Part shown: piece after piece, positions 22,501 through 25,556 of the stretch
Layout: the number at the start of each line of letters is the position of its first letter
Position numbering within the stretch: the stretch's first letter is position 1
Source: Janibacter sp. Soil728
GTDB lineage: Bacteria; Actinomycetota; Actinomycetes; Actinomycetales; Dermatophilaceae
DNA length: 64,000 nt
Direction: 5' to 3'
NCBI RefSeq assembly: GCF_001428305.1
Contig: NZ_LMRZ01000004.1
Location: 345,399-409,398, forward strand
Program-made: the position numbers and the translations under genes
The notes under the pieces: generated by a model
The model's input: the letters and a program-made list of their open reading frames with translations, nothing else
Databases searched by the model: none
What the model was told of the DNA's origin: nothing

Positions 22501-23949
22501 GTGTCCTTCGACTACAAGGTCGCCGACCTGGGCCTCGCCGAGGCCGGCCGTCACCAGATCCGTCTTGCCGAGCACGAGATGCCCGGCCTGATGAGCATCC
22601 GCAATGAGTTCGCGGAGTCGCAGCCCCTCAAGGGCGCCAAGATCGCCGGCTCGCTGCACATGACCGTGCAGACCGCGGTCCTCATCGAGACCCTCACCGC
22701 CCTGGGCGCCGAGGTGCGCTGGGCCAGCTGCAACATCTACTCGACGCAGGACGAGGCCGCTGCGGCCATCGTCGTCGGCGCGGGTACCCCCGAGAACCCG
22801 CAGGGTGTCCCGGTCTTCGCCTGGAAGGGCGAGTCCCTCGAGGAGTACTGGGACTGCACCGAGCAGATCCTCACCTGGGCCGACGACGCTGCGCCCAACA
22901 TGATCCTCGACGACGGTGGCGACGCCACGATGCTCGTCCACAACGGTCGTGCGTGGGAGCAGGCCGGCCAGGTGCCGCCCACGACGGAGGAGGACCCCGA
23001 GGAGTTCACCGTCGTCAAGGCGCTCGTGCGCCGCACCCTCGAGACCGACCCGCAGAAGTGGACCAAGGTCGCCGCCAACATCAAGGGCGTCACCGAGGAG
23101 ACCACCACGGGTGTCCACCGCCTGTACCAGCTCGCCGAGGCCGGAGAGCTGCTCTTCCCGGCGATCAACGTCAACGACGCGGTCACCAAGTCCAAGTTCG
23201 ACAACAAGTACGGGACCCGTCACTCGGTCCTCGACGGGCTCAACCGCGCCACTGACGTCCTCGTCGGCGGCAAGGTCGCCGTCGTCGCCGGCTACGGAGA
23301 CGTGGGCAAGGGTGTCTCGGCCGCACTCTCCGGTCAGGGCGCTCGCGTCGTCGTCACCGAGGTCGACCCGATCTGTGCGCTGCAGGCCGCGATGGACGGT
23401 TTCCAGGTCACGACGATGGAGAAGGCTGCCGAGTACGGCGACATCTTCGTCACGACCACCGGGTGCTACGACGTCATCACCGCAGACCACATGGCCACCA
23501 TGAAGAACAAGGCGATCGTGTCCAACATCGGTCACTTCGACAACGAGATCGACATGGCCGGCCTTGCTCGCACCGAGGGCATCACCAAGACCGAGATCAA
23601 GGCGCAGGTCCACGAGTGGACCTACCCCGACGGCCGCTCGATCATCGTGCTGTCCGAGGGCCGCCTGATGAACCTCGGCAATGCCACCGGTCACCCGAGC
23701 TTCGTCATGAGCAACTCCTTCGCGGACCAGACGATCGCCCAGATCGAGCTCTTCGGCAAGGCCGATGAGTACGTCGACGAGCAAGGCAACCCGACCGTCA
23801 CGACGCTGCCCAAGCACCTCGACGAGAAGGTCGCACGACTGCACCTCGATGCCCTCGGCGTCGAGCTGACCGAGCTGACCAAGACCCAGGCCGAGTACCT
23901 CGGCGTCGACGTCGCCGGACCGTACAAGCCAGAGCACTACCGGTACTGA
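22501..23949 (+). CDS. ahcY: Adenosylhomocysteinase
   Basis: S-adenosylhomocysteine hydrolase of 482 residues, which splits SAH to adenosine and homocysteine and so relieves product inhibition of methyltransferases. Visible are the N-terminal [18 protein letters not shown], the substrate/NAD region [19 protein letters not shown], the NAD loop [18 protein letters not shown], the long insert (about 40 residues around [16 protein letters not shown]) typical of this class, and the C-terminal HYRY. GTG 22501 has CAGGAG nine bases upstream; an in-frame GTG at 22432 would read through the structured leader and is rejected. Confidence 0.96.
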
Positions 23950-23957
23950 TTCACCGC

Positions 23958-24003
23958 GGGACGACGAAGGGGAGGCGCGTGCGCGCCTCCCCTTCGTCGT
24001 CCC
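23958..24003. terminator. Strong bidirectional terminator hairpin
   Basis: A perfect 22-bp stem (23958-23979 with 23982-24003) and a 2-base loop, nine bases after the ahcY stop and between convergent genes. No T-run follows. Confidence 0.85.
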
Positions 24004-24004
24004 C

Positions 24005-24060
24005 TGCATTGCCATAGGGGAATGCAGGCAAGACCGTGCATTGCCATAGGGGAATGCAGG
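24005..24060. repeat. Twin 24-base hairpin repeats
   Basis: Two identical 24-base copies (24005-24028 and 24037-24060; period 32) of a unit with arms TGCATT and AATGCA around GCCATAGGGG. Each copy can form a stem-loop on either strand. They lie after the ahcY terminator and abut the end of the SMR operon, so they may act as extra termination, RNA-stabilising or protein-binding sites. Confidence 0.7.
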
Positions 24061-24061
24061 G

Positions 24062-24397
24062 TTAGGTGCGCCGAGGGTCGCCGGAGGGGACGAGCTTGAG
24101 GCCGATGACGGCCGCGACGATGCCGGCGAGGAGCAGGGCCTTGGTGGGGGAGAAGACCTCGTCGCCGGTGGCCATCGCCCAGGTGACGGTGAGGGCGGCG
24201 CCGACACCGGTCCAGATCGCGTAGCCGGTGCTGATCGGAATGGTGCGCACGGCGAATCCGAGTCCGCCCATGCTCAGCGCCAGGGCGATGAAGAAGACGA
24301 GCGTCGCCACAGGGTTGCTGAACCCGTCGGACTGGCCGAGAGCCGTTGCCCAGACGGCCTCGAGCACGGCGCTGCCCAGCAGGACGACCCACGGCAC
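24062..24397 (-). CDS. SMR transporter, guanidinium exporter-like subunit (second)
   Basis: A 111-residue four-helix small multidrug resistance protein. MPWVVLLGSAVLEAVWATAL carries the central membrane glutamate (Glu13) that binds proton and substrate, and ISTGYAIWTGVGAALTV is the Gdx/SugE-type helix 3. It resembles its upstream neighbour, with one base between stop (24399-24401) and GTG (24397), so the two are translated together and probably form a heterodimer of opposite topologies, like YkkCD. The riboswitch upstream points to guanidine export. The C-terminal tail SGDPRRT is polar. Confidence 0.85.
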   Translation of the reverse strand: MPWVVLLGSAVLEAVWATALGQSDGFSNPVATLVFFIALALSMGGLGFAVRTIPISTGYAIWTGVGAALTVTWAMATGDEVFSPTKALLLAGIVAAVIGLKLVPSGDPRRT

Positions 24398-24398
24398 C

Positions 24399-24713
24399 TC
24401 AGGCCACCACCTTCAGGCCGACGACGCACCCGACGAGGAGTGCGATCAGGGCCAGCCGGGCCGGGGAGGCGAGCTCGTCCCCCTTCGCCATGGACCACGA
24501 GACGGTGAGGGTGGCGCCGATCCCGACCCAGACCGCGTAGGCCGTGCCGGTGGAGATGATCGTCATCGCCCACGCGAGACCGAGCATGCTGGCGGCCAGC
24601 GAGACGGCGAAGATCATGGAGGGAACCGGGCGGGTGAATCCTCGAGAGGCGGAGAGGGCGCTGGCCCAGACAGCCTCGAGCATCCCCGAGACGATGAGCA
24701 CGATCCATGACAT
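24399..24713 (-). CDS. SMR transporter, guanidinium exporter-like subunit (first)
   Basis: A 104-residue SMR protein closest in motif to SugE/Gdx guanidinium exporters: MSWIVLIVSGMLEAVWASAL with Glu13, the FTRPVPSM loop and GTAYAVWVGIGATLTV. Gdx proteins exchange guanidinium for protons and protect against guanidine. ATG 24713 follows AAGGAG (24718-24723), which lies in the hairpin of the guanidine-III riboswitch just upstream, strong independent support for substrate. An ORF extension to 24797 reads through the riboswitch and is not used. Confidence 0.9.
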   Translation of the reverse strand: MSWIVLIVSGMLEAVWASALSASRGFTRPVPSMIFAVSLAASMLGLAWAMTIISTGTAYAVWVGIGATLTVSWSMAKGDELASPARLALIALLVGCVVGLKVVA

Positions 24714-24769
24714 GGGACTCCTTCGTGAGTCCGTCTTGTCGTGGTGCGGGTACGGCTCCCTCGTCCGCA
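24714..24769 (-). promoter_or_regulatory. Guanidine-III (ykkC-III) riboswitch with SD-masking hairpin
   Basis: Read on the minus strand, 24769 to 24727 has the ykkC-III landmarks in order: GGACGAGG, GCCGTACCCG and GACAAGACGG. P1 pairs TGCGG (24769-24765) with CCGCA (24749-24745). The pseudoknot P2 pairs GAGCCG (24758-24753) with CGG-A-CTC (24733-24727, one bulged A). The same 3' strand GGACTC (24732-24727) can instead pair with GAGTCC (24720-24715) around loop ACGAAG, which hides the Shine-Dalgarno AAGGAG (24723-24718). Ligand binding should favour P2 and free the SD, a translational ON switch. The aptamer match is from memory of the consensus; the switch mechanism is inferred. Confidence 0.85.
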
Positions 24770-24795
24770 GGCCCGCTCGCCGAGCCTCACCCCTC

Positions 24796-24801
24796 ACGCT
24801 A
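24796..24801 (-). promoter_or_regulatory. -10 box of the guanidine exporter operon
   Basis: TAGCGT on the minus strand, placing transcription start near 24789, about 20 bases before the riboswitch aptamer. Confidence 0.45.
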
Positions 24802-24878
24802 TCGACGGTGGCTCCTCGTTGTCACCCCGGCCCTGTGTGATGATGGGCGAGCCGTATCACCCGTGGGAAGGGAAGACC

Positions 24879-25556
24879 GTGAAGGGACGTGTCCTCGTCG
24901 TCGACGACGACCAGGCTCTGGCCGAGATGCTCGGGATCGTCCTGCGCAAGGAGGGCCTCGATGTCGCGCACGTCGCGGACGGTGCCCGCGCGATCGACGC
25001 CTTCCACGAAGCGCGCCCCGACCTCGTCCTCCTCGACGTGATGTTGCCCGGCATGGACGGCATCGAGATCTGCCGCCGACTGCGACAAGAGTCCGGCGTG
25101 CCCATCGTCATGCTCACTGCCCGCACGGACACCGTCGACGTCGTCGTCGGCCTCGAGTCCGGCGCTGACGACTACATCGTCAAGCCCTTCAAGCCCCAGG
25201 AACTCATCGCACGCCTGCGGGCCCGTCTGCGTCGCGGTGACGAGCCGGAGCCCGAGCGCCTGACGATCGGCGACCTGGTGATCGACGTGGCCGGCCACTC
25301 GGTCAAGCGGGGCGAGCAGTCCCTGGCCCTCACCCCGCTCGAGTTCGACCTCCTCGTGGCCCTCGCCCGCAAACCGTGGCAGGTCTTCAGCCGCGAGGTG
25401 CTCCTCGAGCAGGTCTGGGGCTACCGGCACGCCGGTGACACCCGCCTGGTCAACGTGCACGTGCAGCGACTGCGCAGCAAGATCGAGCACGACCCCGAGA
25501 ACCCCCAGATCGTCGTCACCGTCCGGGGTGTCGGGTACAAGGCAGGGCCGTCCTGA
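24879..25556 (+). CDS. mtrA: Response regulator MtrA
   Basis: A 225-residue OmpR/PhoB-type regulator. The receiver has the acidic pair DD (residues 9-11), phospho-acceptor Asp53 in LVLLDVMLPGMDG, a Thr in VMLTARTDTVDVV and Lys in YIVKPFKPQEL; the winged helix ends in RLVNVHVQRLRSKIEHDPENP and VVTVRGVGYKAG, near identical to mycobacterial MtrA. With MtrB it controls cell wall, division and osmotic genes. GTG 24879 is preferred because GGGAAGGGAAG precedes it and the length fits the family; in-frame ATGs at 24840/24843 would add 12-13 residues. In mycobacteria tmk lies between ahcY and mtrA; here the SMR operon does. Confidence 0.92.
   Translation: MKGRVLVVDDDQALAEMLGIVLRKEGLDVAHVADGARAIDAFHEARPDLVLLDVMLPGMDGIEICRRLRQESGVPIVMLTARTDTVDVVVGLESGADDYIVKPFKPQELIARLRARLRRGDEPEPERLTIGDLVIDVAGHSVKRGEQSLALTPLEFDLLVALARKPWQVFSREVLLEQVWGYRHAGDTRLVNVHVQRLRSKIEHDPENPQIVVTVRGVGYKAGPS

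Follow-up and report, generated by a model that had tools for sequence, protein, structure and literature searches.

The ykkC-III motif, which precedes emrE and speB genes and occurs in Actinobacteria and delta-Proteobacteria, was described by Weinberg and others in 2010, and the sequence ACGA is given as perfectly conserved in the passages cited from that work (PMC2864571). According to the passages cited from PMC12186494, this guanidine-III class counts 237 unique representatives, found mainly in Actinobacteria, it is predicted to raise the accessibility of the Shine-Dalgarno (SD) sequence on ligand binding and its pseudoknot also blocks scanning by RNase E. Release of the SD by guanidine is therein an already published model for the class. 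Among the related systems covered by the same passages, Guanidine-II (mini-ykkC) is likewise a translational switch for related genes but has two aptamers binding together, whereas a single pseudoknot is found in the copy studied here. Guanidine-I (RF00442) has the ligand and related genes in common with it but belongs to a different family model and usually controls a transcription terminator (PMC12186494).

The locus compared with these systems lies in a stretch of 64,000 nucleotides of Janibacter DNA, referred to below as the window. The covariance model of Guanidine-III (Rfam RF01763) matched minus-strand positions 24724-24790 with 46.7 bits against a gathering cut-off of 36, over its full length (model positions 1-67 of 67) and with an E value of 1.5e-6 over 64 kb, and it was the sole Rfam family to reach its gathering cut-off within the window. 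Such a full-length match is far beyond chance; a fortuitous resemblance, to which we leave practically no probability, is already refuted by this E value; the finding of one genome match, upstream of the expected gene family, also speaks against it. That match was obtained by scoring 150 of 1963 first-look candidates from the whole genome, in a search whose control gave a signal in 1 of 14 named genomes. Guanidine-I (RF00442) was also sought in the genome and gave no match. In the alignment to RF01763, one consensus base is absent before GGGAGCC and one additional A is present in the 3' strand of P2. The ACGA of the class is found at 24764-24761 on the minus strand, adjoining P1, which is a pseudoknot and is absent from the pairs of the Rfam structure line.

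Judging from these letters, the element is as good as certain to be a genuine yet ordinary guanidine-III riboswitch aptamer. With the family it shares the core letters, the P1 pseudoknot, P2, the 5' hairpin, an SD close behind P2, SMR genes downstream and an actinobacterial host, and the genus departs from the consensus by one inserted A, bulged out of the P2 3' strand. The initial annotation had assigned the locus to the ykkC-III class, which the covariance-model scan it had proposed bore out, and the strings it quoted were all found on the minus strand where it had placed them (Table 1). Its interval, 24714..24769, did not reach the variable 5' hairpin (24785-24771) included in the family model, and its version of P2 paired GAGCCG (24758-24753) with CGG-A-CTC (24733-24727).

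Table 1. Coordinates in the window of the leader elements and of the two SMR genes.
Feature	Position	Strand	Basis
Guanidine-III (ykkC-III) aptamer	24724..24790	minus	RF01763 full-length match
Variable 5' hairpin, GCTCG 24785-24781 / CGGGC 24775-24771, one U.G pair	24771..24785	minus	family-model structure line and sequence
P1 pseudoknot helix, TGCGG 24769-24765 / CCGCA 24749-24745	24745..24769	minus	sequence and counts in relatives
GGACGAGG	24766-24759	minus	sequence
P2 helix, GAGCCGU 24758-24752 / ACGGaCUC 24734-24727, A24730 bulged	24727..24758	minus	RF01763 alignment
GCCGTACCCG	24756-24747	minus	sequence
GACAAGACGG	24740-24731	minus	sequence
Predicted alternative (OFF) hairpin, GGACUC 24732-24727 (P2 3' strand) / GAGUCC 24720-24715, loop ACGAAG	24715..24732	minus	folding and genus pair counts
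Shine-Dalgarno AAGGAG, 4 nt upstream of AUG (24713-24711)	24718..24723	minus	sequence
SMR transporter 1, 104 aa, Gdx-like (E13, W16, S42, W62)	24399..24713	minus	Pfam SMR
SMR transporter 2, 111 aa, Gdx-like (E13, W16, S42, W62)	24062..24397	minus	Pfam SMR

Of the 186 family genomes, 107 (own genome included) gave a match to Guanidine-III at E <= 0.001 and 103 exceeded the cut-off; the search filters were strict, and absence from the remaining 79 genomes is unproven. The comparison set consisted of 106 relative sites plus the window copy, giving 107. The modest score of 46.7 bits, well under the family best of 69.1, and the bulging of A24730 from P2 could point to an RNA that resembles guanidine-III but has another ligand, or to a decayed copy without function. 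Such an origin is nevertheless very improbable, since the core letters fit the RF01763 model, 15 of the 16 genus genomes carry the element (the exception, G065, is 79 percent complete) and the genes behind it are Gdx-like. A literature search combining Janibacter with guanidine riboswitch found no paper.

Changes on both sides of the helices were observed across the relatives and support both P1 and P2. The fourth P1 pair, with the numbering starting at the pocket, is C-G in 76 of the 107 sites, G-C in 29, A-T in 1 and G-T in 1, the window copy differing from the prevailing C-G by its G-C; since the search pattern fixes the GG and CC pairs, only pairs outside these were free to vary. The fifth and outermost pair is T-A in 12/107 sites and C-A in 4 of the 15 genus sites, which makes P1 a four-pair helix in the family: the proposed pairing TGCGG/CCGCA holds as a helix, but its outermost T-A pair is not a family feature. 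In P2, one pair is C-G in 75 sites, A-T in 18 and A-A in 1, while the adjacent pair is C-G in 82, T-A in 8, C-A in 3 and A-T in 1. Both distributions are over the 94 of 107 sites in which the GACAAGAC motif, rather than pairing, served to place the 3' strand, leaving out 13 sites (G116, G108, G125, G120, G002, G133, G117, G091, G132, G124, G107, G096 and G010). Earlier P2 counts, with the 3' strand placed by complementarity, were biased towards pairing and were replaced by these. All changes in P1 and P2 are counted over sequences and not as events on a tree. In four relatives of genus g50 (L084, L087, L097 and L110), the partner available to the P2 3' strand (ACGGC) is GCCGU, and this sequence overlaps the GUG start codon instead of the SD.

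The riboswitch precedes SMR genes, the same association as in the passages cited from PMC2864571. Both downstream proteins match Pfam SMR, and their best NCBIfam model is SugE, with scores of 85.1 and 63.8 bits that fall under its cut-off of 126 bits. The best two PDB structures were 6wk5 then 8vxu for the first protein and 8vxu then 6wk5 for the second, 6wk5 being Gdx-Clo (PMC7695847). In the passages cited from that study, E13, W62, S42 and W16 form a stack at the substrate in Gdx, and W16 is conserved in Gdx proteins but replaced by glycine or alanine in the Qac subtype (PMC7695847). The four residues, counted by eye on the translations, are present in both proteins, and together with the Gdx-Clo-like structure matches they indicate that the SMR pair is most likely a guanidinium exporter of the Gdx subtype. 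The second gene starts with a GTG one base past the stop of the first and is probably translationally coupled to it. Counted by motif, a pair of suitably spaced SMR genes follows 12 of the 15 genus sites and 38 of the 102 family sites parsed to a start codon, so such a pair is not general across the family; the five sites of the 107 that were not parsed (G184, G002, G091, G011 and G010) are absent from the 102-site counts. The best protein relative sits on a contig of Janibacter anophelis (L138).

Several observations were made on genes beside or behind the element. For the guanidine-III matches L048 (G184) and L121 (G002), no SMR start was found close downstream. The first SMR frame looks altered in three congeners, L122 (G066), L132 (G059) and L130 (G058), where the lengths read from an inner start were 164 and 319 aa and a frame of 80 aa was not found. 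A divergent response-regulator gene that looks like mtrA (GTG at 24879) begins 88 bases away from the riboswitch (24791-24881). A VVDDD/VLDDD motif on the opposite strand close upstream was seen in 13 of 15 genus sites and in 0 of 92 other sites, which marks the location of the riboswitch as a genus trait. A scan of 23900-24950 for a consensus sigma-70 promoter found none. The one terminator-like site of that scan (24308-24296, minus strand) falls within the second SMR gene.

The aptamer, the genes and the position of the SD can be read directly in the DNA. Behind P2 come, in order, ACG, the SD AAGGAG (24723-24718), UCCC and the AUG (24713-24711), and the GAG of the SD is contained in GAGUCC (24720-24715), the alternative partner of the P2 3' strand GGACUC. 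From this arrangement we infer an ON mechanism for this copy. In the absence of guanidine, GGACUC would pair with GAGUCC and bury the GAG of AAGGAG before the AUG. On guanidine binding, P1 and P2 would form a compact pseudoknot, claim the P2 3' strand and free the SD, so that the exporters would be made as toxic guanidine accumulates. A switch acting on the SD is likely rather than proved by sequence.

Folding is in line with such a switch. The OFF hairpin of the window folds at -9.5 kcal/mol, and the mean unpaired probability of the four SD bases in the leader to AUG is 0.24 in the pseudoknot-free ensemble and 0.64 when P2 is forced with the P1 strands kept free. This value goes up with P2 forced in 15/15 genus sites, partly by construction, because forcing P2 removes the strand. 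Three of these sites have an SD whose unpaired value already exceeds one half without P2 (G052, 0.53; G053, 0.65; G066, 0.74). Forcing P2 brings the leader to AUG from -18.1 to -7.5 kcal/mol, 10.6 above the pseudoknot-free minimum, and P1 taken as a separate duplex returns about 5.0 kcal/mol; for a longer leader the energies are -37.5 and -21.1 kcal/mol (gap 16.4), with 6.6 returned by P1. The ligand and tertiary contacts, or else co-transcriptional folding, must cover what remains of the gap after P1.

The OFF helix was compared over the 15 genus sites, in which standard pairs occupy 83 of 90 cells; this is an uncontrolled count, and three of its six pairs are made with the GAG of the SD, which translation preserves in any case. 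The first pair is G-C in 7 sites, U.G in 5, G.U in 1 and unpaired in 2, and the second is G-C in 7, G.U in 5, A-U in 1 and unpaired in 2. These pairs were counted by script with SD anchors, as MAFFT misplaced the SD region in some rows, and row G054 was anchored by hand on its GAGTCC. In G066, the OFF hairpin is lost (0.0 kcal/mol, 4/6 pairs). The bulged A of P2 is invariant in all 15 genus sites; it pairs in the OFF hairpin, and P2 has no need of it. This dual role is a detail not met in the passages cited from the class literature.

Dinucleotide-preserving shuffles of the sequence 3' of the P2 strand gave a less favourable picture. The hairpin energy of the window was reached by 13 of 200 shuffles, and its number of expected pairs by a fraction of 0.21 of 200. 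For expected pairs, the 15 genus sites had a mean shuffle fraction of 0.34 and the 87 other sites one of 0.32, the shuffled segments of G116, G117, G120 and G124 probably extending beyond the first start codon. The OFF hairpin is thus not clearly beyond chance against shuffles, for the window or for the genus. The hairpin said to hide AAGGAG is accordingly present, as GGACTC/GAGTCC, but taken alone it is not strongly beyond chance.

Control could instead pass mainly through mRNA stability, the bound pseudoknot of the aptamer blocking RNase E scanning and the SD hairpin playing a minor part. Blocking of RNase E is reported for the class in the cited passages of PMC12186494, which refer to Richards and Belasco 2021, and the weakness of the OFF hairpin against shuffles and its loss in G066 agree with this view. 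On the other side, 14 of 15 genus sites have at least three expected pairs joining the P2 3' strand to the start region, a number that shuffles often equal, and with sites grouped by genus the pairs outnumber those of the shuffles in 21 of 27, a modest excess. We regard control mainly by stability as unlikely, and protection of the mRNA from RNase E may contribute beside SD release. The preferred reading, which we hold with good confidence, is that of a guanidine-III riboswitch controlling a two-gene SMR operon, probably of Gdx-subtype guanidine exporters, and presumably acting as an ON switch by SD release.

The ON switch had been summarized at first as one strand with two fates. A switch of this kind agrees with the anatomy, with the folding and with some of the genus data, the shuffle controls being its weak side, and the image follows the published idea for the class without adding a new principle. 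It can be tentatively extended to a P2 3' strand written for two partners, in which the bulged A would be kept because it is normally paired in the hairpin that hides the SD; across genera the same strand would cover the SD in some and the start codon in others, as an expression platform built into the aptamer. We give this extension somewhat less than an even chance.

Behind the SMR operon, a 22-base near-palindrome, TGCATTCCCCTATGGCAATGCA, is found twice on the minus strand (24005-24026 and 24037-24058). The genome contains 27 exact copies, frequently in series of two or three spaced 30 to 62 bases apart, and 0 exact copies of the reversed control. Among the 15 other genus genomes, in which exact matches only were counted, a single copy was found, in G061. 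It looks like a REP-like intergenic repeat spread in this species.

The guanidine-III copy described here changes nothing in what is known of the class. For the organism, the riboswitch points to guanidinium as the substrate of the two SMR genes. The SugE model that fits them best is named for quaternary ammonium compounds, so annotation by name can mislead here. With its overlap between the aptamer and the SD hairpin, the element would also be a small and convenient translational switch to test in actinobacteria.
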